A DNA stretch of 64,000 bases from contig VJOU01000006.1 in NCBI GenBank assembly GCA_007050995.1, forward strand, positions 62,001-126,000, read 5' to 3'. Numbering within the stretch: position 1 is the stretch's first letter; the number at the start of each line of letters is the position of its first letter. Shown in pieces: positions 8,166 through 60,418 of the stretch. A program made the position numbers and the translations under genes. Origin of the DNA: Glycocaulis profundi (GTDB lineage: Bacteria; Pseudomonadota; Alphaproteobacteria; Caulobacterales; Maricaulaceae). The notes below the pieces were generated by a model, which did not search any database, was not told where the DNA came from, and saw only the letters and a list, made by a program, of their open reading frames with translations.

Positions 8166-8796
8166 GGGCGAGCCTCTCGATCTTCAGAATCGCGGCCTCG
8201 TCATGGGTGAGGCTGGGCAGGGTCTCGACTTCAAAGGTCCAGCTTTTGCGCGCGCGGGTCAATTCATCGGGGTGCCGCGCGCCCTTGGGAAACAGCGCGA
8301 TCGCCCCGTTATCCACATATGGATTCGCATAATCCAGCAAACGGTCGAGCTCGGTCATCGCCCGGGCCGTCACCACGTCCTGCCGGACGCCGGTGTCGAG
8401 ATGCTCCGCGCGGACGCCCTTCACGATGGCCGGAGCCTTGGTTTCGCTGACCACTTCTGACAGGAAATCGGCCTTCTTGCCGATGGATTCCACCAGCGTG
8501 ACCAGCGCCCCCTCCACACCCCGGTCGGCCAGAGTCAGGGCGATGGCGATGCCGGGAAAGCCCGCGCCCGCCCCCAGATCGAGCCAGCGCTTCGCGCCCG
8601 GCGCATGGTCCACGAGCTGCCAGGAATCCAGAGCGTGGCGGAACCAGAAATCGCCCAGGGTCGACCGGCCGACGAGATTGGTGAGCGCATTGCGCTCTTC
8701 CAGCCGCGCCCGCCACAGCTCGAACGTCTCCAGTGTTTCACGTGAAACACCCGTGCGCGCCTGAAAGGCCGCCGCATCGAACGGACGTTCGGACAT
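8155..8796 (-). CDS. rsmG: 16S rRNA (guanine527-N7)-methyltransferase RsmG (GidB)
   Basis: RsmG methylates G527 of 16S rRNA with S-adenosylmethionine. The 213-residue product has the family N terminus (TGVSRETLETFELW), the SAM-binding motif LDLGAGAGFPGIAIA and the late VTARAMTELDRLL segment. Codons 17-21 (VSRET) are written by a perfect parS site at 8734-8749. The ATG shares one base with the mnmG stop, so translation is coupled to mnmG; the 3' end runs into parA. Confidence 0.95.
   Translation of the reverse strand: MSERPFDAAAFQARTGVSRETLETFELWRARLEERNALTNLVGRSTLGDFWFRHALDSWQLVDHAPGAKRWLDLGAGAGFPGIAIALTLADRGVEGALVTLVESIGKKADFLSEVVSETKAPAIVKGVRAEHLDTGVRQDVVTARAMTELDRLLDYANPYVDNGAIALFPKGARHPDELTRARKSWTFEVETLPSLTHDEAAILKIERLARAR
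8734..8749. other. parS centromere site (in rsmG)
   Basis: The perfect 16-bp palindrome TGTTTCACGTGAAACA, the universal chromosomal parS sequence bound by ParB. It lies inside rsmG and reads as Val-Ser-Arg-Glu-Thr. It is about 8.4 kb from the proposed oriC. Confidence 0.95.
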
Positions 8797-14623: not shown

Positions 14624-15453
14624 GCCCGGCCCTCCAGAATCTCGATCAGCAGCGGTTTTGGATCGTCGGGCGGGGGCGGCGCGCCGAACAGGGCCTCGAA
14701 GGCGGGCCGGGCCTGCCCGATCAGCATGGACAGGCCATCGACCGTCTTCAGCCCGTGCGCGCGGGCGGCCTTCAGAAGGCCCGTCTCCAGCGGCGCATAG
14801 ACCATGTCGAACACCACCGCGCCGGGCCGGGCGCGGCCCAGACTCAGATGAGGCGAGGCCCAACCCTTCATCCCCAGACTGGTCGCGTTGACGACCAGCC
14901 CCGCGCCCTCCAGCGCGAAGGCTTCCTCCGACAGGGGCTGGACGACGGCATTCGCGCCCATCTCCTCGGCCAGGGCGGCGGCCTTGTCCGGGCTGCGGTT
15001 GAGGATGCGGATCTCCGCGCCCAGATCAGCCAATAGCGCCAGCGCGGCCCGGGCCGCGCCGCCCGCCCCCACCAGGACCGCCGGGCCGTCCCCAGGCGTC
15101 CAGCCGCCCTCGTCCAGCGCGGCTTTCACCCCGATGATGTCGGTGTTGTCCGCATGCACGCCCCGCTCGGTGACCAGCACCAGATTGGCCGCGCCGATCC
15201 GGCGGGCGGCTTCGCTGGCGCTGTCGGCCAGCTTCAGCGCCGTCTCCTTGTGAGGGATGGTGACGTTCATGCCGGTCATACCGAAATCCTTCATGGATTT
15301 CAGTGCGTTGGGAAATGATTCACCACACGTCGCGACATGGACGTAAGACCCGGCCATACCCGCGCGCTCCAGCCAGAACGCCATCATGGCGGGCGAGACC
15401 GAATGGGCCACCGGCCAGCCGCACACCCCCGCCAGCGGCAGCCCGCCTCTCAT
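14620..15453 (-). CDS. aroE: Shikimate dehydrogenase (NADP+)
   Basis: AroE reduces 3-dehydroshikimate in aromatic amino-acid synthesis. The 277-residue product has substrate-binding PVAHSVSPAM near the N terminus, the catalytic Lys in NVTIPHKE, ADNTDIIG and an NADP fold with LVGAGGAARAAL and LNRS. It is coupled by 4-nt overlaps to maf upstream and coaE downstream. Confidence 0.95.
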   Translation of the reverse strand: MRGGLPLAGVCGWPVAHSVSPAMMAFWLERAGMAGSYVHVATCGESFPNALKSMKDFGMTGMNVTIPHKETALKLADSASEAARRIGAANLVLVTERGVHADNTDIIGVKAALDEGGWTPGDGPAVLVGAGGAARAALALLADLGAEIRILNRSPDKAAALAEEMGANAVVQPLSEEAFALEGAGLVVNATSLGMKGWASPHLSLGRARPGAVVFDMVYAPLETGLLKAARAHGLKTVDGLSMLIGQARPAFEALFGAPPPPDDPKPLLIEILEGRA

Positions 15454-16034
15454 CGCGAAACCGCGCCCTGCTCGCGCAGCATGGTCAGCACGGGCAGGAG
15501 CGGCAGACCCAGCACGGCGTAAAAATCGCCCTCCACGCTGTCGAAGAGCTGAGCGCCCAGACCTTCATAGGCATAGGCCCCCACGCCCTTGGTCAGGATC
15601 TCGCCCGCCGCCAGCATGTAGCCGGCCAGGAAGTCGTCGGAGAAGTCGCGCATGGCCATGCGGCTCTCGCAGGCGTGGCGCCAGACGATGACGCCGTCCC
15701 GGGCCGCGGCGATCCCGCCCTTCAGCCAGTGGACCTGGCCGCGCAGCATTTTCAGCCGCTCCTCGGCCTCCCGCACGCTCTTGGCCTTGTCGAACAGGCG
15801 GCCCTGGAAATCGAGCACCTGATCGGCGCCGATCACCAGCTCGCCGGGGCGGCGGGCGGAGACCGCCAGCGCCTTGGCCTCGGCCAGCCTGAGCGCCAGC
15901 GCGGACAGATCGCCGTCATGGCCGTGCTTGAGCGCGTCCTCGTCCACGTCGGCGGGATCGGTGTCGAACACCAGGCCGGCGTTCTGAAGAATGGCCCGCC
16001 GCGAGGCGGAGCCGGAGGCGAGAACGAAACTCAT
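15450..16034 (-). CDS. Maf family nucleoside triphosphate pyrophosphatase
   Basis: Maf proteins hydrolyse dTTP/UTP, CTP or modified NTPs to monophosphates and limit incorporation of damaged bases. The 194-residue product starts with the phosphate-binding ASGSASRRAIL (a variant of the usual SxSPRR), followed by GADQVLDFQGRLFDKAKS and GVGAYAYEGLGAQLFDSVEGDF. The Gln in GADQVL suggests the YceF-like (m7GTP-type) subgroup over YhdE, though this cannot be settled by eye. It sits between ppsR and aroE with 4-nt overlaps at both ends. Confidence 0.9.
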   Translation of the reverse strand: MSFVLASGSASRRAILQNAGLVFDTDPADVDEDALKHGHDGDLSALALRLAEAKALAVSARRPGELVIGADQVLDFQGRLFDKAKSVREAEERLKMLRGQVHWLKGGIAAARDGVIVWRHACESRMAMRDFSDDFLAGYMLAAGEILTKGVGAYAYEGLGAQLFDSVEGDFYAVLGLPLLPVLTMLREQGAVSR

Positions 16035-16867
16035 ACCGTGTTCCTGTGCTCGTTGAGCATGTTGATGACCTTGGCCGCGGTCTCCTCGATGGAGCGGCGG
16101 GTGACGTCGATGGACGCCCAGCCGTGTTTGGCGAACAGGCGCTTGGCGTAGATGATCTCTTCCTTCACCCGCGCCTCGTCCACGTAATCGGTGGAGCGGT
16201 CTTCCTTCAGGTTCAGAAGCCGGTTGCGCCGGATCTGGATGATGCGCTCAGGGGACGCGGTCAGGCCCACGATCAGCGGCTTGGTCAGCTCGAACAACAC
16301 CTCGGGCAGCGGCGCGCCGGGCACCAGCGGGATGTTGGCCGTGCGGATGCCGCGATGGCCCAGATAGACGCTGGTGGGAGTCTTCGAGGTGCGCGAGATG
16401 CCCAGAAGGATCACCTCGGCGCCCGCCAGATCCTCGCCCTGCCCGTCGTCATGGGCCATGGAATAGTTCATCGCCTCGATGCGCCGGTAATAGTCCGCGT
16501 CCAGCGCCCGCTGCGCCCCCGCCCGTCCGATCATGGGGGCGCCCAGATAGCCCGACAGGGTCGCCTCGACCGGGTCGAGCACCGCGATGGCGGGGATGCC
16601 CAGCGCCGCGCACCGGTCCTCCAGCGTGCGGCGCAGGTCGGGATTGACCATGGTGTACATCACCACGCCGGGATAGGCCGCCACATGGTCCAGCGCGCGC
16701 TCGAGCTGCTTGGGCGAGCGGACCAGGGCGAACAGATGCTCGATGGGCTCGGCGTTCTCGAACTGGGCCACCGAGGCGCGCATCACTCCCATCAGGGTCT
16801 CCCCGGTGGAATCGGAGATCATGTGCAGGTGGAAATAGACTTCGGTGTCGGGCGAGCGGGGCATCAA
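16031..16867 (-). CDS. PpsR-type pyruvate, phosphate dikinase / PEP synthase regulatory protein (RP001 homologue)
   Basis: Bifunctional kinase/phosphorylase family (DUF299) that controls PPDK or PEP synthase by ADP-dependent threonine phosphorylation. The 278-residue product shows HMISDSTGETL at the start, the P-loop-like GISRTSKTPTSVYLGHRG, KVANIPL-like TANIPLVPG and a C-terminal VTRRSIEETAA. The Rickettsia RP001 gene beside that origin belongs to the same family, so its position here marks the left side of oriC. It is the first gene of the ppsR-maf-aroE-coaE-dnaQ operon. Confidence 0.93.
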   Translation of the reverse strand: MMPRSPDTEVYFHLHMISDSTGETLMGVMRASVAQFENAEPIEHLFALVRSPKQLERALDHVAAYPGVVMYTMVNPDLRRTLEDRCAALGIPAIAVLDPVEATLSGYLGAPMIGRAGAQRALDADYYRRIEAMNYSMAHDDGQGEDLAGAEVILLGISRTSKTPTSVYLGHRGIRTANIPLVPGAPLPEVLFELTKPLIVGLTASPERIIQIRRNRLLNLKEDRSTDYVDEARVKEEIIYAKRLFAKHGWASIDVTRRSIEETAAKVINMLNEHRNTV

Positions 16868-17105
16868 GTGGGTCCGGGTCCGCGGCGGGGACCCGAACTG
16901 GTAGCGCGCCGGGGATGATCTGTGAACAACCCGGCGCCCCGGAGCGTTATGGAAGCGGCGATGGCGGATCCTCCCCGCGCGGCGCCCGGCTCTGCACGGC
17001 GGAGCCTTTCGTCTTGCGGAAAACTTTCCCGCCTGTGGACCGCAACGGGACGCGGGGGCCGTGAACGGGCGTTCTCACCGGCTGTTTCAAGGCGGGACTC
17101 GCCCG

Positions 17106-17120
17106 TTAAGACTTCGTAAA
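17106..17120. promoter_or_regulatory. CtrA-like site 1 in oriC (TTAA-N7-TAAA)
   Basis: TTAAGACTTCGTAAA fits the CtrA consensus TTAA-N7-TTAA with one mismatch. CtrA blocks initiation at the Caulobacter origin and controls cell-cycle promoters. Its inner TAAGACTT (17107-17114) is inverted as AAGTCTTA at 17133-17140 in the second site. Confidence 0.6.
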
Positions 17121-17122
17121 TC

Positions 17123-17141
17123 ATGGTTAAGAAAGTCTTAC
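17123..17141. promoter_or_regulatory. CtrA-like site 2 in oriC (ATGGTTAA / TTAA-N7-TTAC)
   Basis: ATGGTTAA at 17123-17130 is the reverse complement of the CtrA half-site TTAACCAT, and TTAAGAAAGTCTTAC (17127-17141) again has TTAA-N7-TTAC spacing. Two sites this close inside the ppsR-hemE gap match the expectation for a CtrA-controlled origin. Confidence 0.6.
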
Positions 17142-17357
17142 CCCCGCTTTCCACATCCGCCCCGGCCACAGCTTGCGGCCCTTTGTCCCCAAGCCGTGGA
17201 AAGCGGGTATCCGGCCCGTCCTGAATGAGTTATCCCCGCTCACCCCGGCCTTATGACTCCGTCCAAACCTTTTTTCTTTCAAAGAAGGGAAGAAGGACGG
17301 GACGGCGCCGGCGGGGAAAACCCTTCTTCGGGACATGACGGCAAGCAGGCAGACCAG

Positions 17358-18389
17358 ATGAGCGACAAACCCTTCCTCCGCGTGCTTTCCGGCGAGGCCG
17401 TCAGCCCGCCGCCCATCTGGCTGATGCGCCAGGCGGGGCGCTATCTGCCGGAATATCTGGCGGTGCGGGCGAAACAGCCCGACTTCATCAGCTTCTGCCT
17501 CAACCCTGACGCGGCCGCGGAGGTCACCCTGCAGCCGATCCGGCGCTACGGCTTCGACGCGTCCATCGTGTTCGCCGACATCCTGCTGATCCCGCACGCG
17601 ATGGGCCAGAAGGTGTGGTTCGTCAAAGGCGAGGGGCCCAAGCTCGAGCCCCTCACCCCGGCGGACGCGCCCTCGCGGCTGTCGCTGGAAAACGTGCGCG
17701 AGATCCTCAGCCCCGTCAGCGAGACCCTGCGCCGGGTCAAGGCGGGCCTGCCTGACACCTGCGCGCTGATCGGCTTCGCGGGCGCGCCGTGGACGGTGGC
17801 GACCTACATGATCGAGGGCGGCGGCTCGAAGGACCGCTGGAACGCGCGCAGCCTCGCCTGGGAACAGCCCGAGGCTTTCGACGCGATGATGGACCAGATC
17901 GCGGATGCCACCGCGCTCTACCTGATCGACCAGGCCGCGGCGGGCGCGGACGCGCTGAAGATTTTCGAAAGCTGGGCGGAGGGCCTGCCCGCGCCGCTGT
18001 TCGACCGGGTGGTGATCCGCCCGACCCGCCGCATCGTGGACGCCGTGCGCGCCACGGGCGTGACCGCGCCGATCATCGGCTTCCCCAAGGGCGCGGGGCC
18101 GCATTACGTGCGCTACGCCGAACAGACCGGCATCGACGCGCTGGCGCTGGATCACGGGCTGGACACGGACTGGGCGCGCGCGGTGCTGCCCAAATCCCTG
18201 CCCGTGCAGGGCCAGCTCGACCCCGCGGTGCTCAAGGCGGGCGGCGCGGCGCTGGATTCAGAGGTCGACCGTCTGCTTTCCGCCTGGGGGGGGCGGCCCT
18301 ATGTGTTCAATCTCGGCCACGGGATAAATCCCGACGTGCCGCCGGAGAACGTCGCACGGCTGGTCGAGCGCATCAGGGCGCAGGGCTGA
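17358..18389 (+). CDS. hemE: Uroporphyrinogen decarboxylase
   Basis: HemE converts uroporphyrinogen III to coproporphyrinogen III in haem synthesis. The 343-residue product has the N-terminal signature PIWLMRQAGRYLPEY with the substrate-binding Arg pair, FADILLIPHAMGQ with the catalytic Asp, GFAGAPWT, and GHGINPDVPPENV near the end. The ATG at 17358 is chosen over the longer frame from 17253, because homology starts at MSDKPFLR; that upstream stretch belongs to the origin. First gene of hemE-hemH-hemJ. Confidence 0.96.
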   Translation: MSDKPFLRVLSGEAVSPPPIWLMRQAGRYLPEYLAVRAKQPDFISFCLNPDAAAEVTLQPIRRYGFDASIVFADILLIPHAMGQKVWFVKGEGPKLEPLTPADAPSRLSLENVREILSPVSETLRRVKAGLPDTCALIGFAGAPWTVATYMIEGGGSKDRWNARSLAWEQPEAFDAMMDQIADATALYLIDQAAAGADALKIFESWAEGLPAPLFDRVVIRPTRRIVDAVRATGVTAPIIGFPKGAGPHYVRYAEQTGIDALALDHGLDTDWARAVLPKSLPVQGQLDPAVLKAGGAALDSEVDRLLSAWGGRPYVFNLGHGINPDVPPENVARLVERIRAQG

Positions 18390-18405
18390 AGGAAAGGGCT
18401 GAGGA

Positions 18406-19470
18406 ATGGGGCGCAGAATCGCCGTGGTGCTGTTCAATCTGGGCGGGCCGGACGACCAGAAGACCATCAAGCCCTTCCTGCGCAACCTGTTCCGCGATCC
18501 GGCCATCATGTACGTGCCCAACCCGGTCCGAGAGGCGCTGGCCTGGCTGATCTCGTCCACGCGCGGGCCGAAGGTGGCCAAGGAATACGCCAAGATGGGC
18601 GGCGGCTCGCCCATCGTGCCCGAAACCCGCGCCCAGGCCGAGGCGCTGACCGCGGCGCTGTCGGCCGCCCTGCCCGGCGACGAGATCCGCTGCTTCCTCG
18701 CCATGCGCTACTGGCATCCCTTCACCCATGAGGCCGCCGCTGAGGTGAAGGCCTGGGGGCCGGACGAGACCGTGCTGCTGCCGCTCTATCCGCAGTTCTC
18801 CACCACCACCACCGGCTCCTCGCTGAAGGCCTGGCGCGACGGCGGCGGGGGCGAGGCGCGCACGATCTGCTGCTTCCCCGCCCAGCCTGATTTCATCGCC
18901 GCCCACGCCCGGCTGATCCGCGAGGCGTGGGAGACGGCGGGCCGGCCCGATCCGGAAAACGTGCGCGTGCTGCATTCGGCCCACGGCCTGCCCGAGGTGA
19001 CGATCAAGCGCGGCGATCCGTATCAGTGGCAGGTCCATCAGACGGTCGATGCGGTCAAGGCCCTGCTGCCCGAGCTCGGCGACCACCTGACCTGCTTCCA
19101 GTCCAAGGTCGGGCCGCTGGAATGGATCAAGCCGGCCACCGAGGACGCGGTGCAGGAGGCGGCCAAAGACGGCAAGCACATCATCCTGTCGCCCATCGCC
19201 TTCGTGTCCGAGCACATCGAGACGCTGGTCGAGCTCGATGAGGAATACGCCGAGGTCGCCCATGAGCACGGGGCCGCGGGCTATGCCCGCGTGCCGACCC
19301 TGAGCGTGGACGCGGGCTTCATCGAGGCGCTGAAAACCTTGACGGTGGACGCCCTGTCCGGTCCTGTCGGCCTGAAACCGCCGAACGGCGCGCCGGTCTG
19401 CCCGGCCAAGTTCGGCCGCTGCCCCTGCCGCGAGGCGGGGCTTGAGAGCGCCGGGAACAGGGCCGCATGA
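18406..19470 (+). CDS. hemH: Ferrochelatase
   Basis: HemH inserts iron into protoporphyrin IX. The 354-residue product opens with VVLFNLGGPD, contains the active-site region LHSAHGLPEVTIKRGDPY with the metal-binding His, FQSKVGPLEWIKP, and ISPIAFVSEHIETLVELDEEY-type sequence with the conserved His and Glu. The C-terminal Cys cluster (VCPAKFGRCPC) resembles the tail that holds a 2Fe-2S cluster in some ferrochelatases, though this is inference. It lies 16 bp after hemE and overlaps hemJ by 4 nt. Confidence 0.96.
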   Translation: MGRRIAVVLFNLGGPDDQKTIKPFLRNLFRDPAIMYVPNPVREALAWLISSTRGPKVAKEYAKMGGGSPIVPETRAQAEALTAALSAALPGDEIRCFLAMRYWHPFTHEAAAEVKAWGPDETVLLPLYPQFSTTTTGSSLKAWRDGGGGEARTICCFPAQPDFIAAHARLIREAWETAGRPDPENVRVLHSAHGLPEVTIKRGDPYQWQVHQTVDAVKALLPELGDHLTCFQSKVGPLEWIKPATEDAVQEAAKDGKHIILSPIAFVSEHIETLVELDEEYAEVAHEHGAAGYARVPTLSVDAGFIEALKTLTVDALSGPVGLKPPNGAPVCPAKFGRCPCREAGLESAGNRAA

Positions 19471-19913
19471 CCGAGCTGATCGACGCCGCCTATCTGTGGA
19501 TCAAGGGCCTGCACATCGCCGCGGTCATCTTCTGGATGGCCGGGATGCTCTACCTGCCGCGCCTGTTCGTGTACCACCACACGGCGACCCCGGGCGGGGA
19601 GCTGGAGGGCGCGCTTCTCAAGCAGGAGCGCGGGCTTCTCAAGATCATCATGAACCCGGCCATGGCCGCGGTCTGGATCTTCGCCATCCTGATGCTGATC
19701 GCCAACCCCGCCCTGTTCACGCAAGGCTGGTTCCACCTCAAGCTCGCCCTGGTGCTCGCCCTGAGCGGCCTGCATGGCTTCTACTCGGCCAGCGCCCGCA
19801 AATTCGCCGCCGGGCAGCGCCCGCGCAGCGAGAAATTCTGGCGCATCATGAACGAAGGCCCCGCCCTCATCGCCCTGGTCGTCGCCGTGGTGGCGGTCGC
19901 CAAGCCGTTCTGA
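19467..19913 (+). CDS. hemJ: Protoporphyrinogen oxidase HemJ
   Basis: HemJ is the membrane-bound, quinone-linked enzyme that oxidises protoporphyrinogen IX. The 148-residue product has four predicted membrane helices, an early KGLHIAAVIFWMAGMLYLPRL with the conserved His, GWFHLKLALVLALSGLHG with the second conserved His, and a C-terminal helix. The last 25 bp including the stop are repeated exactly at 20713-20737, so the present 3' end may have been supplied by an inserted element. Start ATG 19467 overlaps the hemH stop. Confidence 0.93.
   Translation: MTELIDAAYLWIKGLHIAAVIFWMAGMLYLPRLFVYHHTATPGGELEGALLKQERGLLKIIMNPAMAAVWIFAILMLIANPALFTQGWFHLKLALVLALSGLHGFYSASARKFAAGQRPRSEKFWRIMNEGPALIALVVAVVAVAKPF
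19889..19913 (+). repeat. 25-bp direct repeat, left copy (end of hemJ)
   Basis: The last 25 bp of hemJ, beginning GGTGGCGGTCGCCAAGCC and ending at the TGA stop, recur without mismatch at 20713-20737. Identity stops sharply at the end of the repeat. The pair frames an 824-bp AT-richer segment with one orphan gene, as expected when an element integrates at the 3' end of a gene and restores it. Confidence 0.9.
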
Positions 19914-20003
19914 TCCAGCGTACGACGTTGGCGCCATTTTAGATAGAATTAAGGTATAGGTTGCCATCTTGTCCTAGGCAGAGGCTGGGAATGGAAGGTG
20001 GTT

Positions 20004-20711
20004 ATGGACATTTCACCGCAAGCTTCGGGCGCTGGCGCATTGGGGAATGCCGCCATTGGAAAGTATACGAACCGACTGAAAGACATAAGAGATGTCATAA
20101 ATGGAAATGCCAGCGACGCTGTGAAGGTAGAGGCTTTCTCAGAGCTGCAGCAAATGTTCCGTTTCTCGAACGGTCAATTCACTAAAGCGGATTTTGAAAT
20201 TCATCTTGAAATAAGGCACAGCGATTTCGGCAAGAAAATTCAGCAGTTCGCCAACAAAGCGGCCAGTCAGATGAACGCGCGTGTATTTGACATGGATGCT
20301 GACGAACACTGGCAGCTTGGTGTTCTGGACACGTATTCCATGGACGAGCAGCGCATGATCATGGTCGGGATGGGCTGGGATTCCGCCCACGACTCGCTGG
20401 AATCGCTGAGAGCCTTGCTGACCCGTCAGCATGAGGAAGACATGGCCATGCGCGCGGAGGCGAAGGGCGAGGACAGCGTGGAGTTGTCAGAGACTGCCCG
20501 CGCCCTCACCGGAGCACCTGATTCGCTGGACCTCAGCGCTGGCGAGATCGACACGCGTTCCCAGGCGGCGCTGAACATCATGACTGCGATCGTGGAGAAT
20601 GTCCGCGCGTATCAGCGTCTGGGATCGGCGAGCCGTCAGGACACGGAAGCCTCCGCTCTGGAGGCCTTCATCGACAGGCGGAGCGAGGCCCGGCGGGACG
20701 CGTCTGGTTGA
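20004..20711 (+). CDS. Orphan protein of unknown function in the hemJ-rho insertion
   Basis: A 235-residue protein that I do not recognise. It is predicted soluble, without signal peptide or membrane helix, and largely helical: KYTNRLKDIRDVINGN, an AFSELQQMFRF segment, HWQLGVLDTYSMDEQRMIMVGMGWD in the middle, then helices rich in Ala, Arg and Glu (LTRQHEEDMAMRAEAKG; IMTAIVENVRAYQRL). ATG 20004 is preferred to GTG 19998 because GGAAGG lies 5 nt upstream. The first half uses AT-rich codons unlike its neighbours; the second half is closer to the genome. The stop lies 1 nt before the downstream direct repeat. Confidence 0.75.
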   Translation: MDISPQASGAGALGNAAIGKYTNRLKDIRDVINGNASDAVKVEAFSELQQMFRFSNGQFTKADFEIHLEIRHSDFGKKIQQFANKAASQMNARVFDMDADEHWQLGVLDTYSMDEQRMIMVGMGWDSAHDSLESLRALLTRQHEEDMAMRAEAKGEDSVELSETARALTGAPDSLDLSAGEIDTRSQAALNIMTAIVENVRAYQRLGSASRQDTEASALEAFIDRRSEARRDASG

Positions 20712-20712
20712 C

Positions 20713-20737
20713 GGTGGCGGTCGCCAAGCCGTTCTGA
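20713..20737 (+). repeat. 25-bp direct repeat, right copy (upstream of rho)
   Basis: Exact copy of the hemJ 3' end including an idle TGA. It is followed by the rho leader. If an element inserted at the hemJ end, this copy is the original chromosomal 3' end and the one in hemJ came with the element. Confidence 0.9.
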
Positions 20738-20998
20738 GCCCCATCCCGCTTGACGGGCGGGGCGGGCTGTGTCACGCATCGCTGGACTCCTGAAAAGGAC
20801 CTCTCCTTCACGGGCCGCGCGGTCGTCGTCGCGCGCCGGGCCCGGTCCCCGCAAGACAGCCATAGCCGCCCTCGCGAGCCGAACGGCCGGCGGCCCCGCA
20901 GGACCCTCACGGGACCGGTCCGTTTTTCCGCGGACGGCGTTCCCGGCGAATCTTCCCTTCAAAGCCCCCTCTCAAGACCTTTCTCCAGAGACCCTCCC

Positions 20999-22363
<1,365 letters not shown>

Positions 22364-22394
22364 TGCTGGCGCCGGTCCCGCCTGCGGGCGGGAC

Positions 22395-22438
22395 CGGTTC
22401 CGCGCACGAGCGCGGGCGGCCGTTTGGCCTTGCGGGCC
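22395..22438. repeat. Dispersed intergenic repeat, copy A
   Basis: Starts CGGTTCCGCGCACGAGCGCG and ends TTGCGGGCC. The same 44-bp pattern occurs at 29166-29209 with about 37 positions identical by eye and only one difference in the first 24. Both copies lie downstream of a plus-strand gene, here rho, and outside any gene. Confidence 0.65.
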
Positions 22439-22480
22439 TCGCGGCCCGGTCAATCTGCGCTCCTTCCCTCAGCCAAGTCC

Positions 22481-22527
22481 GTCATCCCGGCCGAGCGGAT
22501 CGGCCCTCCGGGGCCGTCCGGGATGAC
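22481..22527 (+). terminator. Hairpin downstream of rho
   Basis: Arms GTCATCCCGG (22481-22490) and CCGGGATGAC (22518-22527) are perfect 10-bp inverted repeats with further G/C pairing inside. No T-run follows, so it may be a REP-type hairpin that protects or pauses transcript ends more than a classic terminator. Confidence 0.45.
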
Positions 22528-22547
22528 ACGCAGTGTGCGGGGCATCT

Positions 22548-22835
22548 CTACAGATGCCGGTCCACGTCCATGCGGGCGTGCAGGATGCGCACGATCTCGA
22601 TCACGCCCTCGCGCTCACGGAACCAGATCATGTGGGCGGAGACACGGGCCTTCCGGTAGCCCTGCCGGATGTCGGAGGTCTGGCTGACGCGGTCGCCTGA
22701 CGCCAGACCGACACAGGCGCCATGAATCTGATCGACATATTCGTCCGCCTGGTCCGGGCTCCAGGTCCGCGCGGTGTAGTCCCAGATCCCGTCCAGATCA
22801 GCGATCGCGGCGGGCGTGAAACGCAGATCCGTCAT
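22548..22835 (-). CDS. ParE/RelE superfamily toxin
   Basis: A 95-residue toxin of the RelE/ParE fold: N-terminal LRFTPAAIADLDGIWDYTARTWSPDQA is a typical ParE opening, followed by SDIRQGYRKARVSAHMIWFRE and a terminal EIVRILHARMD. ParE members poison DNA gyrase. It overlaps the antitoxin gene by 4 nt (start ATG 22835), the usual arrangement of antitoxin first. Open frame further upstream belongs to the antitoxin gene in another frame. Confidence 0.9.
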   Translation of the reverse strand: MTDLRFTPAAIADLDGIWDYTARTWSPDQADEYVDQIHGACVGLASGDRVSQTSDIRQGYRKARVSAHMIWFREREGVIEIVRILHARMDVDRHL

Positions 22836-23068
22836 CCAGCGCGCTTGCGGGCCTTGAAGGCGTCGAGGTCGAAGGCTTCCGCAGGCCCGGATTCCTCGCC
22901 TGCGACCAGCGCGGCTTCCAGCGCGCGGACCTTCGTCTCTCTCTCCTCGAGCAGTCGCAGGCCGGCGCGAAGCACCTCGCTGGCCGAACCGTAGCGGCCC
23001 GAGCTGACCTGATCGTCCACGAAGCGGGCGAAATGGTCGCCCAGGGTCATCGAGGTGTTGCGAGCCAT
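22832..23068 (-). CDS. ParD-type antitoxin
   Basis: A 78-residue ParD/CopG-type ribbon-helix-helix protein: MTLGDHFARFVDDQVSSGRY and SASEVLRAGLRLLEERETK are signatures, and the acidic-to-basic tail (AEAFDLDAFKARKRAG) would wrap the toxin. ATG 23068 has a strong GGAGGT ribosome binding site; longer frames upstream are not needed. The operator palindrome at 23103-23119 lies just upstream. Confidence 0.92.
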   Translation of the reverse strand: MARNTSMTLGDHFARFVDDQVSSGRYGSASEVLRAGLRLLEERETKVRALEAALVAGEESGPAEAFDLDAFKARKRAG

Positions 23069-23102
23069 GAGACCTCCGGTTCCGGCGGCTTGAGACGAGC
23101 AT

Positions 23103-23119
23103 ATACCACAAACTGGTAT
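23103..23119. promoter_or_regulatory. Probable ParD operator
   Basis: Perfect inverted repeat ATACCA-CAAAC-TGGTAT, 35 bp upstream of the parD start in an AT-rich stretch within otherwise GC-rich DNA. Autorepression of parDE by ParD or the ParDE complex is standard, so this is the likely operator overlapping the promoter. Confidence 0.6.
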
Positions 23120-23201
23120 TTCTGAAACCGTGCGGCGACCGTCACGGCTTCCCCCTCGCGCCGAACCGGCTAGTCTGCCGTCTCCAGCGAGGAGATGCGC
23201 C

Positions 23202-23828
23202 ATGACCACCCCTGATCTCGCCCTTTATCACGCCCCGATGACCCGCTCGATCCGGCCCCGCTGGGCGCTGGAGGAGATGGGGCTGCCCTACCGGATGGAG
23301 ATGGTCAGCTTCGACCGGGGCAATGTGGGCGGGGAGGAATACCGAGCGATCAATCCGCTGCAGAAGGTCCCGGCCCTGACCGATGGCGGCGCGGTGATCC
23401 TGGAGTCCGTCGCCATCGTGGAATATCTGGGCAACCGCTACGGCCCCAGCCCGCTCATCGTCCGGCCGGAAGAAGACGATTATCCGCGCTATCTCGAATG
23501 GCTGCACTACGGGGAGGGCTCGATGTCCATGAGCGTGAACCTGCTGCTCGCCCACACCATGCTGCTGCCCGAAAAACACCGGAATCCCCAGCTCGCCCAG
23601 TGGGCGAAGGCGGAGGTGGGCAAGCATCTCGCCCACATCGCCGGGCGGGGACTGGACGGGCGGGAGCATATGGCCGCGGGCCGGTTCACCGCCGCGGACA
23701 TCTCGGTGACCTACATGCTCTACCTGCTCAAGCTGATGGGCCAGCTCGAGGACGCGCCCGAGGCGGTGAAGGCCTACTGGACGCGGCTCACCGCGATGGA
23801 CAGCTGGAAGACCGCCAGCGGGCGCTGA
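23202..23828 (+). CDS. Glutathione S-transferase family protein
   Basis: GST of 208 residues. The thioredoxin-fold N-terminal domain reads LYHAPMTRSIRPRWALEEMG, then INPLQKVPALTDGG with the cis-Pro and ILESVAIVEYLGNRYG with the glutathione-binding Glu-Ser pair. The C-terminal helical domain includes FTAADISVTYMLYLLKLMG. The catalytic residue is probably Ser/Thr near the first helix. ATG 23202 is preceded by GGAG. It is convergent with secB across a strong hairpin. Confidence 0.92.
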   Translation: MTTPDLALYHAPMTRSIRPRWALEEMGLPYRMEMVSFDRGNVGGEEYRAINPLQKVPALTDGGAVILESVAIVEYLGNRYGPSPLIVRPEEDDYPRYLEWLHYGEGSMSMSVNLLLAHTMLLPEKHRNPQLAQWAKAEVGKHLAHIAGRGLDGREHMAAGRFTAADISVTYMLYLLKLMGQLEDAPEAVKAYWTRLTAMDSWKTASGR

Positions 23829-23843
23829 TCGCCGCGCACGAAA

Positions 23844-23865
23844 AAGGGGCCCCGCGGGGCCCCTT
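23844..23865. terminator. Bidirectional terminator between GST gene and secB
   Basis: Perfect palindrome AAGGGGCCCC-GC-GGGGCCCCTT. On the minus strand it is followed by a run of five T, so it ends secB transcription well; on the plus strand the T-run is short. Confidence 0.8.
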
Positions 23866-23888
23866 GATCATTCCGGCGGCAGCCTGGA

Positions 23889-24395
23889 TCAGGCGTTGCC
23901 GGCGGGCGGCTGGCCGCCCGTTTCGCCGTCGCCGCCCTGACGGGCGAGCTGCTGGCGGTAGAGCGCGGCGAAGTCGACCGGCTCGAGCATGAGCGGCGGG
24001 AAGCCGCCGTCGCGGGTGGCGTCCGACAGCACGCGGCGCGCGAACGGGAAGAGCAGACGCGGGCACTCGATCAGCAGGAAGGGCTCGCGGGCGCGATCAT
24101 CCACGCCGCGGATCTGGAACAGGCCCGCATAGGCCAGCTCGACGATGAACAGCGCGTCGCCCTCGCGCTCGGCCTTGGCGGACAGGTTGAGCGTGACCTC
24201 GAAGGTCTCGGGCTCGACCTGGCGGGCCTGCACGTCGATGGACATGTCGATCTGGGGCTGGCCGCCGCCGCGCAGCGAGGCGGGGGCGTTGGGGTTCTCG
24301 AAGGACAGGTCCTTGATGTACTGCCCGAGCACGCGCAGCTGGGGCCCCTGCGGGGCGGCGGCTTGCGGTTCGGGATTGGCGGGCGCGTCGGTCAT
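23889..24395 (-). CDS. secB: Protein-export chaperone SecB
   Basis: SecB holds precursor proteins unfolded and delivers them to SecA. The 168-residue product has the SecB core: QYIKDLSFENPNAP, DVQARQVEPETFEVTLNLSA, LFIVELAYAGLF, LLIECPRLLFPFARRVLSDATRDGGFPPLMLEPVDFAALY. A Pro/Ala/Gln-rich N terminus and a short acidic C terminus flank it. ATG 24395 has AGGA 6 nt upstream. It is divergent from the TimA-like gene, a usual alphaproteobacterial pairing. Confidence 0.96.
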   Translation of the reverse strand: MTDAPANPEPQAAAPQGPQLRVLGQYIKDLSFENPNAPASLRGGGQPQIDMSIDVQARQVEPETFEVTLNLSAKAEREGDALFIVELAYAGLFQIRGVDDRAREPFLLIECPRLLFPFARRVLSDATRDGGFPPLMLEPVDFAALYRQQLARQGGDGETGGQPPAGNA

Positions 24396-24585
24396 GGGCA
24401 TTCCTGATGAATTAAGGGAAAAGCTTGGGTCGGGCGGTATCACGCGGGGGGGCTCAGGGCAAGGCGCGGGCCGGACCGGGGCGCCGCGCCGGGGCTGACG
24501 GATTGCGGCCCGCGCCCTATATCTGGGGACGTGTCAGCAGTATAACGGGTCTGCCGCGCGGCCAGAAAGGGCGTGCGGGGACGTG

Positions 24586-25290
24586 ATGAAAGGCAAGGGC
24601 CGGACACCGATGGACCTCCTCCAGCTTCTGTTCTTCGCGGGACTCGCCGTGTTTCTGGGCGTGCGCCTGTACATGACGCTGGGCAAGCCCACCGGGCGCT
24701 CGCCCGAGGAGCATGCCCGCGAGGAGCGCGAGCGCCAGGCCGCCCGCGAAGCCGCCGCCCCGGCCCGCCCGGTCTCGCTGGGCCGTCAGACCGGCCCCGC
24801 CGAAACCGCCGCCATGGCTCCCGAGCCCGCCTATGACGGCCCGGCCGCCGAGGGTCTGGCCGCCATCAGGCGCATCGACCCCGCCTTCGATCCGGATGAA
24901 TTCCTCAAGGGCGCCAAGGGCGCCTATGAGATGATCGTGACCGCCTTCGCCAAGGCCGATCTCGACACGCTGCGGATGCTGCTCAGCGACCGGGTCTACG
25001 CCAAGTACGCCGAGGCCATCGCCGCAAGGCAGGAGAAGGGCGAGACCCTGATCACCGAGATCGAGCGGCTGAAAGAAGCCGCCATCAAGGAAGCTTCGCT
25101 TAACCATAACCGGGCCAAGCTGAAGATCGCCTTCACAGCGGAGCTCGCCAGCGAGACCCGCGACAGCGATGGGAAGCCCGTCTCCGGGGACCTGACCACG
25201 CTGAAGACCGTGAGCGAGATCTGGAGCTTCGAGCGTGACGTGGACGATCCGAACCCGAACTGGCGCCTGTCCGGGGTCAAACCGGCCTAG
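24586..25290 (+). CDS. Tim44/TimA family putative adaptor protein
   Basis: A 234-residue inner-membrane protein with one N-terminal helix (LLQLLFFAGLAVFLGVRLY), a charged linker (EEHAREERERQAAREAA) and a C-terminal Tim44-like domain (FLKGAKGAYEMIVTAFAKADLDTLRMLLSDRVYAKYAEAI). Tim44 anchors the mitochondrial import motor; bacterial TimA is less understood. The start may be GTG 24583, ATG 24586 or ATG 24610. The last 56 bp overlap the start proposed for mltA. Confidence 0.85.
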   Translation: MKGKGRTPMDLLQLLFFAGLAVFLGVRLYMTLGKPTGRSPEEHAREERERQAAREAAAPARPVSLGRQTGPAETAAMAPEPAYDGPAAEGLAAIRRIDPAFDPDEFLKGAKGAYEMIVTAFAKADLDTLRMLLSDRVYAKYAEAIAARQEKGETLITEIERLKEAAIKEASLNHNRAKLKIAFTAELASETRDSDGKPVSGDLTTLKTVSEIWSFERDVDDPNPNWRLSGVKPA

Positions 25291-26467
25291 CGCCGCCCTC
25301 CTTCTTTCCGCTCTTCTGGCGCTCGCGGTCTCCGCCTGCGCCTCCGTGCCTGAAGGTCCCGACGGCGCGCCTGCGCCCGGCGCGGGGCTGCATCTCACGC
25401 CTGAACGCTTCGCGGCCCTGCCCGGATGGGGCGAGCGCGAGACCCTGCCCGCCCTTTCGGCGCTGGTGCAGAGCTGCCGCCGCATCGCCTCACGGCCCGA
25501 CGACCGGGCGATGAACGAGCGCGCGCCCTATGCGGGCCGGGCGGGCGACTGGCGCGGGGTGTGCGCCGAGGCCGAGACCCTGCACGCGCGCGGTCCCGAC
25601 GAGGCCGAGGCGCGGCGCTTCTTCGAAACCCGCTTCACGCCCATGAAGGTGCCCGGCGAGGGCCGCCTGACGGGCTATTACGAGCCGCTGGTCGATGTCC
25701 GCCGCCAGCCCGACACCGAATACTCCATGGCGATAAGGGCGGTGCCCGGCGGCGCCTTCTCGGGCGATCTGGGCCAGCTCATCGCCGAGATCGACGCGCC
25801 GGCCGCCGCGGCGGGGCCCGCCGACATCCGCCGTCCGCGCCGGGAGATCGAGACGCGCCAGATCGGCGCGCCGCTGGCCTGGGGCCGGCCCATCGACGTG
25901 TTCTTCCTGCAGATCCAGGGCTCGGGGCGGCTGGTGTTCGAGGACGGCCATCAGGTCCGCGCCGCCTTCGCCGCCCACAACGACCACCCTTACGTCTCCA
26001 TCGGCCGGGTGCTGATCGACCGCGGCGAGCTCGACCCCAACCGGGCCTCCAAACAGCATATCGAGGACTGGCTGTGGCGGAACGGGCCGGACAGCTGGCA
26101 GCCCCTGTTCAATGAGAACCCGCGCTATGTCTTCTTCCAGCTTCAGCCCCTGCACGACCATGATCTGGGACCGAACGGCTCGCAGGGCGCGCCGCTGACG
26201 CCCATGGCCTCCATTGCGGTGGACCCGGCCTATCACGCCTGGGGCGTGCCGGTCTTCGTGGAGGCCGACATCGCCGATCATCCGCGCTGGTCGGGCCTCG
26301 TCATCGCCCAGGACGCGGGCGGCGCCATCACCGGGCCGGTGCGCGGCGATCTGTTCTATGGCTGGGGCCATGCGGCGGGCGACCGGGCGGGCCGCCAGAA
26401 CGCCATGGCCCGCTGGCACGTGCTGCTGCCCAATGAGCTGGCCGGGCGCACCCGCCCCCTGTCGTGA
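25235..26467 (+). CDS. mltA: Membrane-bound lytic murein transglycosylase A
   Basis: MltA cleaves peptidoglycan glycan strands, leaving 1,6-anhydro ends. The product of about 410 residues has a lipoprotein signal (lipobox VSAC), then RFFETRFTPMKV, GRLTGYYEPLVDV, the substrate-binding VFFLQIQGSGRLVFEDG with the key Gln and Gly residues, and a C-terminal 3D domain (VDPAYHAWGVPVFVEADI, VIAQDAGGAITGPVRGDLFYG) that holds the catalytic Asp. Only GTG 25235 gives an upstream in-frame start, overlapping timA by 56 nt; GGAG is 8 nt before it. Confidence 0.93.
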   Translation: MTWTIRTRTGACPGSNRPSAALLLSALLALAVSACASVPEGPDGAPAPGAGLHLTPERFAALPGWGERETLPALSALVQSCRRIASRPDDRAMNERAPYAGRAGDWRGVCAEAETLHARGPDEAEARRFFETRFTPMKVPGEGRLTGYYEPLVDVRRQPDTEYSMAIRAVPGGAFSGDLGQLIAEIDAPAAAAGPADIRRPRREIETRQIGAPLAWGRPIDVFFLQIQGSGRLVFEDGHQVRAAFAAHNDHPYVSIGRVLIDRGELDPNRASKQHIEDWLWRNGPDSWQPLFNENPRYVFFQLQPLHDHDLGPNGSQGAPLTPMASIAVDPAYHAWGVPVFVEADIADHPRWSGLVIAQDAGGAITGPVRGDLFYGWGHAAGDRAGRQNAMARWHVLLPNELAGRTRPLS

Positions 26468-27045
26468 CCCGCAGGCCCCCCTCTCGCCCTCTGAGGCCCG
26501 AGGAGCAGGCCGTCTGGCGGCAGGTGGCGAAAACCGCGAAACCCCTCGACCCGAAGAAGGCGCAGGCGCTGGACGCGCCCCTGCCGCCCGTCCCGCCCGA
26601 GGCCGAACGCGGGCGGGCGGGCATGCGCGCCCACGCCTCCCCCGCCGCCATCGAGGCGGGCCGGGCCAGGTCGCCGGTTCCCGCCGACCGGGGGGCGGAG
26701 AAGAAGGTCCGGCGGGGCCGGGTGGAGGTGGAGTCGAAGATCGATCTTCATGGCCTGACGGCCATGCGCGCCCGGGGCGAGTTGCTGAGCTTCCTGCATC
26801 GGTCGCGCAGCAAGGGGATGCGCACGGTTCTGGTGATCACCGGCAAGGGTGCGGGCGCCCGGGCGATGGACGAAAGCCGGTTCGAGCCGTGGAGCCCGGA
26901 CGCGCGGCCCCTGCCGGGCGTGCTGCGCCGCAGTTTCCGCCAGTGGATGGCCGAGGGCGAGTTCGCGGCGCTGGCCTCGGGATACGCCACCGCCCACGCG
27001 CGTCATGGCGGGGCGGGGGCGTTCTACGTCATGCTGCGCGGCTAG
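26464..27045 (+). CDS. Smr domain protein
   Basis: A 193-residue protein with a disordered basic N terminus and a C-terminal Smr (small MutS-related) domain: KIDLHGLTAMRARGELLSFL contains the LDxHG motif and VLVITGKG the second conserved loop, ending ASGYATAHARHGGAGAFYVMLRG. Smr domains nick or process nucleic acids; this stand-alone type follows mltA in many alphaproteobacteria. GTG 26464 overlaps the mltA stop by 4 nt. Confidence 0.92.
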   Translation: MTRRPPSRPLRPEEQAVWRQVAKTAKPLDPKKAQALDAPLPPVPPEAERGRAGMRAHASPAAIEAGRARSPVPADRGAEKKVRRGRVEVESKIDLHGLTAMRARGELLSFLHRSRSKGMRTVLVITGKGAGARAMDESRFEPWSPDARPLPGVLRRSFRQWMAEGEFAALASGYATAHARHGGAGAFYVMLRG

Positions 27046-59410: not shown

Positions 59411-60418
59411 ATGGGGGCATCAATGTCGCGCATTCCCGTGGCCGCGCTGGCGGCCGGACTGGTTTCCATTTCCGCCGGGGTCGCGCAGGCGCAGCAGCCT
59501 GACGCCTCGCTGGCCCCGCACTATGGCGAGATCGGCCTGAACGCGGGCTTCACCCCCGACCCGGCCGTGACCGACATCCGGATCGGCGGGGAGCTGTCGG
59601 TTTCCGAGGCCATGTCTGGCCGGGATGGGGGAAACGCGGGGGACGGGCGGTGCCGGGGTTATGTGGATGCCGCGCCTGACCTGGTCCTTGATTACGGCGC
59701 AGGGTCGGTCTTCGATCTTTACATCCGCGCCGTCTCGGACGTGGACAACACCCTGCTGGTGCGCGATCCGCGCGGGGCTTGGCACTGCGACGACGACAGC
59801 GGCAGCGGGGTGAACGCCGAACTCCACTTCGAGTCCCCGGCCACGGGCCGCTACACGATCTGGGCGGGCGCCTACAGCTCGGGCAACGCCTATGAGCCGG
59901 GGCGGATCGAGATTTCCGAACTGTCCGCGGGCGGCTCCGGCTGGGACGCGGACTGGGGCGACGGCTGGACGGACGGCCTGAACTGGGGCGCGGAGCCCAT
60001 CTATGGCTCGGTGGCCCTGCGCGGCGGGTTCACGCCCGACCCCCACGTGGTCGAGCTTGCCATCGGCGGCACGGTGGACGTGGCCGCGGCGCTGTCGGGT
60101 GAAAGCATCGGCAATGCGGGCGACGGTCGGTGCCGGGGCCATGCGGCCTCCGCGCCCGACTACCGGCTGAACTTCACGCCCGGCTCCCTGCCGCTGATCA
60201 TCAGCGCCGTCTCGGACGCCGACAACACGCTGGTGGTCAACGCGCCGGACGGAAGCTGGCACTGCGACGACGACAGCGGCAGCGGGGTGAACGCGCAGAT
60301 CCGCTTCGACAGCCCCCGCTCGGGCCAGTACGACATCTGGGTCGGCGCCTATTCCAGCGGCCGCAGCTACGAGGACGGACGGCTGGAAATCTCCGAGCTG
60401 GGCGCCCGGCGCAAATAG
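59411..60418 (+). CDS. Secreted protein with two tandem PPC-like domains
   Basis: A 335-residue protein with a signal peptide ([20 protein letters not shown]) and two repeats of about 110 residues (about 38-175 and 195-332). Each holds [40 protein letters not shown] and GAYSSG-YE-GR-EISEL. Two cysteines per repeat (RCRG and WHCDD) could form disulfides. The repeat halves resemble pre-peptidase C-terminal (PPC) beta-sandwich domains, but without a protease. ATG 59423 is an alternative start. It lies between infC and rpmI, behind an AT-rich leader. Confidence 0.75.

Follow-up and report, generated by a model that had tools for sequence, protein, structure and literature searches.

Several classes of integrative element are known. 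In passages of PMC5704250, cis-mobilizable elements (CIMEs) are products of the decay of ICEs or of integrative and mobilizable elements (IMEs); they keep attL and attR, have no integration or transfer genes and accrete in tandem at a gene end. The same source, in the passages concerned, describes IMEs as mostly 5-15 kb long, the smallest one named there being 1.7 kb, and as encoding a recombinase. Islands at ssrA without an integration module are described for Dehalococcoides in part of PMC3146451. The strand-biased Vibrio elements SE-6945 and SE-6283 are integrative and have preferred target sites; their core genes are intA-CDS2-intB-CDS4, and SE-6283 and its kin measure 13.8-41.3 kb (passages of PMC9345347).

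Here we analyzed an 824-bp segment at the 3' end of hemJ in a stretch of 64,000 nucleotides from Glycocaulis profundi (the window), together with two ~0.8-kb units that follow prs in the same genome. The hemJ unit fits the description of CIMEs: it keeps 25-bp repeats at a gene end as putative attL and attR, and no integration or transfer genes were found in it with Pfam, PHROG, NCBIfam and PF00589. It differs from CIMEs in that the units are ~0.8 kb long, hold one gene each and agree in size, with no sign of decay here. No larger relative of the 235-codon gene in the hemJ unit was found, and the like sizes of the three units speak against an origin by decay. The searches made yielded no element with a matching core as a candidate mobilizing partner. 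Like IMEs, the units would represent site-specific insertions that rebuild the end of the target gene; unlike IMEs, they show no recombinase of their own. Integron gene cassettes are single genes that occur as tandem units. The units studied here resemble them in both respects and differ in duplicating the end of the target gene. Like the SE elements, the ~0.8-kb units would be integrative with preferred target sites, and unlike them they lack the core genes intA-CDS2-intB-CDS4. The ssrA islands are a precedent, and the limited set of literature searched contained no description of ~0.8-kb gene-end units, a statement that extends to this set only.

The layout of the hemJ unit is given in Table 1. 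The original prediction, made from the letters of the window, had described an orphan segment, AT-richer than its flanks, between perfect 25-bp direct repeats, and this description holds in each of its parts. The two repeats are exact copies; the first ends with the stop codon of hemJ, the second starts 1 nt after the stop codon of the 235-codon ORF, and when extended the repeat measures 28 bp with one mismatch. The body of the unit has a GC content of 0.56, and in 500-bp windows GC ranges from 0.53 to 0.64 over the insert and from 0.62 to 0.76 outside it (15000-27000). A repeat of this length exceeds chance in the window: two such 25-bp matches occurred in none of 100 dinucleotide shuffles, and ten third-order Markov replicas contained no direct repeat longer than 19 bp. 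No third copy with up to three mismatches was present in the 3.63-Mb genome. The 235-codon ORF is the only frame of more than 100 codons that lies wholly within the unit. In the 90 bp ahead of it, GGAAGG at 19993-19998 could serve as its ribosome-binding site, and a consensus scan of this part found no sigma-70 site. Within the left repeat, CCAAGCCGTTC occupies positions 19900-19910.

Table 1. Features of the hemJ-rho region (positions in the window)
Feature	Position	Strand	Remark
hemJ (UPF0093), target gene, intact	19467..19913	+	Pfam PF03653, E 5e-52
Left repeat, attL-like	19889..19913	+	Final 25 bp of hemJ including the stop codon
GCGTACG	19918..19924	+	Shortly after the left repeat; shared with the left prs junction
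Left part of the unit, ahead of the ORF	19914..20003	+	90 bp
Putative cargo gene	20004..20711	+	235 codons, without known relatives
Right repeat, attR-like	20713..20737	+	Second copy of the hemJ end
Native hemJ-rho spacer	20738..20998	+	261 bp, contains TGTGTCACGC
rho	20999..22363	+	

The 235-codon ORF looks like a foreign gene. GC3 in four successive windows along it was 0.54, 0.58, 0.80 and 0.78, compared with 0.91-0.94 in its neighbours hemH, rho and hemJ. A search of 98 other related genomes with the encoded 235-amino acid protein gave nothing at E ≤ 0.001, and ten weak matches (E 0.012-0.097) in 384 other genomes of the class were read as noise. There was no match at E ≤ 0.1 in plasmids or phages, none at E ≤ 10 among PDB sequences, and no relative in genome_contigs or IMG/VR, where the searches were seeded by exact short peptides and thus detect close relatives only. 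Family scans gave no Pfam match above cut-off, no PHROG match and no NCBIfam match. FlgM (Pfam, E 0.1, below its cut-off) and PDC-M47B (PADLOC, E 0.02) were both taken as chance matches, and an AlphaFold2 model built without an alignment was set aside as poor (mean pLDDT 45.8).

To compare the insertion site, 123 hemJ loci were used, including that of the window itself; 117 were from the family, taken from 117 of the 121 genomes with a match (G488, G497, G522 and G553 were left out), and six were from the order. hemJ and rho had been predicted to be neighbours in relatives, and rho was indeed found 28-281 bp after hemJ in 96 of the 123 loci. The other 27 comprised the window, three loci with gaps of 559-667 bp, four with an additional gene (1191-1227 bp) and 19 in which rho was not found in the stretch, it being noted that some of these 27 rest on matches of 29-39% identity and that one (L131) stops at a contig end. 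All five genus mates lack an insert at the junction, as expected of an empty site, with hemJ-rho gaps of 234, 238, 239, 241 and 270 bp. TGTGTCACGC occurs shortly 3' of the hemJ stop codon in four of these five, and in the window solely after the second repeat copy, from which the distance to the rho ATG is 261 bp. This position of TGTGTCACGC and the similarity of the spacer to the gaps of the genus mates indicate that the insertion sits between the two copies. The hemJ end did not recur downstream (at least 19 of 25 letters) in any of the 121 testable loci among the 122 others, the stretch covered being mostly 1.5-2.5 kb and less at contig ends. Two findings named beforehand as speaking against the predicted element were not made: no fetched relative carries the gene with both repeats at this place, and a tandem duplication of hemJ is ruled out because only 25-28 bp recur.

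The additional gene between hemJ and rho in the four genomes of another genus (L044, L049, L050 and L052), which we take to be esterase-like, was considered and rejected as a different event, as no gene end is repeated there; this gene converges on hemJ. As a separate observation, the hemJ of the window is closest to that of another genus (79%) and hemH and rho are closest to those of its own genus; a tree of hemJ does not settle this likeness.

Two tandem units of ~0.8 kb, A and B, were found outside the window at the end of prs (G000:C104:156644-158276; L204 16644-18276). By its sequence we take prs to be the PRPP synthetase gene, with rplY and pth as presumed neighbours. The prs end recurs after 828 bp; the two copies are identical over 27 bp and differ at one position over 41 bp. 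Unit A is 828 bp and unit B, which lies behind it, about 803 bp long, next to 824 bp for the hemJ unit. The body GC contents of A and B are 0.53 and 0.51, respectively. The right end of B consists of 21 bp of the right end of A in an exact copy, and the ~110 bp preceding the right ends are alike in A and B (a score reached by 1 of 500 shuffles). The left parts of A and B after the 41 bp are not alike (96 of 300 shuffles reach the score), nor, outside the junction, does the hemJ unit resemble A or B (scores reached by 93 to 292 of 300 shuffles). A third core copy is absent in B, perhaps due to a small deletion.

Units A and B each contain one small gene on the minus strand with a lipoprotein-like start (167 and 137 codons, counted from an ATG of our choice), and the likeness between the two proteins is confined to the signal peptide. 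Both proteins were searched in Pfam, plasmids and phages, that of A also in the 137 family genomes and that of B also in IMG/VR. Pfam gave nothing above cut-off (the start of B matched LptM_cons at E 0.0098), plasmids and phages gave no relative, and for A the 136 other family genomes gave none at E ≤ 0.001 and six weak matches (0.012-0.07). The distance between prs and rplY is 1738 bp here. For comparison, prs loci were taken from 30 of the 131 genomes with a match: the gap is 148-193 bp in 13 of the 29 other loci (four genus mates have 154 bp) and 569-1125 bp in 7, and 9 have no rplY (L25) in the stretch. In none of the 29 did the prs end recur with more than 16 of 25 letters in the stretch examined. 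At both hemJ and prs, an empty site with a single copy of the core is present in relatives.

A scan for direct repeats at gene ends was run on 2,055,902 of the 3,626,598 bases of the genome, and the other ~1.57 Mb was scanned for the junction pattern described below. Among 1463 gene ends passing a codon-composition filter, an exact second copy of the last 18 nt lay less than 5 kb away in three cases: hemJ (824), prs (828) and C2:241946 (829). The last was discarded, being a pair of adjacent paralogous genes with 70% identity over 598 bases, so that hemJ and prs are the sole gene ends with such a repeat unexplained by paralogues. Their left junctions share CCAAGCYGTTC before the stop codon and GCGTACG after it, and no other of the 1463 ends has GCGTACG within 35 nt 3' of its stop codon. 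A search of 137 family genomes for the pattern CCAAGCNGTTY...GCGTACG returned just the two junctions, and a reversed control pattern had three matches, all in other genomes; in IMG/VR the pattern had eight matches, with no gene end nearby. An earlier pattern allowing three mismatches was dropped (37 matches against 20 for its control, with the two junctions not listed).

Since the pattern was derived post hoc from the same two sites, blind scores carry more weight. In local alignments of the whole 60-nt junction, 100 of the 1463 ends matched hemJ as well as prs does, and with prs as the query 161 scored as high as hemJ, indicating that the likeness of the whole junctions is not special. With the parts taken apart and hemJ as the query, the prs score was reached by 21 ends for the core and by 93 for the part after the stop codon (of 1463, hemJ itself counted); prs was the only one of the 1462 other ends to reach both its part scores, and six reached the sum. 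The corresponding numbers for the prs query were 8 (core), 247 (after the stop codon), 3 (both) and 7 (sum). We regard the sharing of junction words by hemJ and prs as suggestive but unproven. Neither the agreement in unit size nor the repeats at the gene ends depend on it.

A recombinase was predicted to be absent from the hemJ unit, which agrees with its single ORF of more than 100 codons; none was seen in the other two units either. A six-frame search of the genome yielded 11 tyrosine recombinase matches (PF00589), of which none lies on the hemJ contig or on the prs contig, and serine recombinases were covered by the family scans of the 235-codon ORF alone. No recombinase with a core matching that of the hemJ unit was found among the 11. 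The expectation that the 25-bp repeat might be met beside an integrase gene was not borne out in the genome itself, genome_contigs or IMG/VR: genome_contigs contained no match to a degenerate 24-mer of the core, and the one IMG/VR match of a 19-mer was discarded as the end of an unrelated gene. The one element around these matches that could be bounded, a 6.4-kb stretch between 30-bp direct repeats (G000:C351:73727-80171; L196, L310) with a tyrosine recombinase on the minus strand (78736-80097), uses another core than the hemJ unit; it also contains genes that we take to resemble a serine resolvase and RNase H. Three of the 11 tyrosine recombinase matches lie in a row on one strand at G000:C66:6387-8787 (L172), an arrangement like that of recombinase-in-trio elements.

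Site-specific integration, for which tyrosine recombinases are often responsible, is recognized by long identical cores at a gene end, a target gene that stays whole and sites that are empty in relatives. We propose, with a probability of about 0.53, that the 824-bp segment and the prs units are integrated non-autonomous elements of ~0.8 kb served by a recombinase in trans. Recombination between a circular form, holding the core once, and the core in the hemJ end would have kept hemJ intact on the left and created a second copy of the core on the right, with the 235-codon gene as cargo between the repeats. The length of the core and its place at a gene end make a recombinase of the tyrosine type most likely. 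As no recombinase is tied to the hemJ core, we infer that the enzyme would act in trans and belong to another element or replicon. Two further units of like size with one other gene each, possibly of common origin with the hemJ unit, would have been placed likewise in succession at the prs end. A small cargo element moved in trans was also the original prediction, which gains its strongest support from the second locus of the same design, outside the window, although movement would have to be read from structure. A tentative and rather doubtful extension is that these units form a distinct class of minimal elements of ~0.8 kb, each with one lineage-specific gene and no enzyme, served by one recombinase in trans at gene ends with CCAAGCYGTTC, and stackable. 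No such unit was found in any other genome searched.

The main rival, which we consider unlikely on balance, is that the units are remnants of larger integrase-bearing islands that lost the recombinase by deletion and kept both attachment sites. This is the origin given for CIMEs, which are also described as accreting in tandem at one site (passages of PMC5704250); the genome does contain an integrase-bearing stretch between direct repeats, that of 6.4 kb, and B has lost one repeat. Independent decay should, however, vary the sizes, and the units measure 824, 828 and about 803 bp with one complete ORF each; nor is there a PF00589 match on either of the two contigs. The like sizes of the three units speak for a defined small element over three decayed islands, with the reservation that the units are few and two share a site.

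Homologous or illegitimate recombination, for example a single crossover within 25-27 bp that brought in a fragment bearing the gene end, would need no special enzyme and would presumably leave exact repeats likewise, and it accords with the unremarkable blind alignment of the two junctions. We regard it as improbable: 25 bp is short for a RecA-dependent crossover, and two loci have the same unit size, one gene per unit and cores sharing CCAAGCYGTTC. Capture of integron-like gene cassettes at secondary sites would explain the single gene per unit and the tandem units at prs. Integron cassettes carry their own attC and do not duplicate the target end, whereas these units duplicate 25-41 bp of it, which makes such capture very improbable. 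Finally, an assembly in 356 contigs invites the suspicion of error, yet both loci are internal to their contigs (167,618 bases for hemJ, 178,048 for prs) and have intact neighbours, and an assembly error is hardly credible.

Some further features of the window were observed. Two TGTTTCACGTGAAACA sites, 16-mers at 8734 and 9279 and thus 545 bp apart, are presumably parS-like sites. Two small genes just 3' of rho on the minus strand (22548-23069) resemble, as we take it, a ParDE-type toxin-antitoxin pair. A GC-rich 38-bp exact direct repeat occurs at 59780 and 60257, 477 bp apart.

Units with a single orphan gene between copies of a gene end, present in one genome while its relatives lack them at that place, would offer a testable vehicle by which such genes may enter bacterial chromosomes, and island searches that start from an integrase would miss them. 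If the units do form a distinct class, they would represent a route for the delivery of orphan genes next to essential genes.
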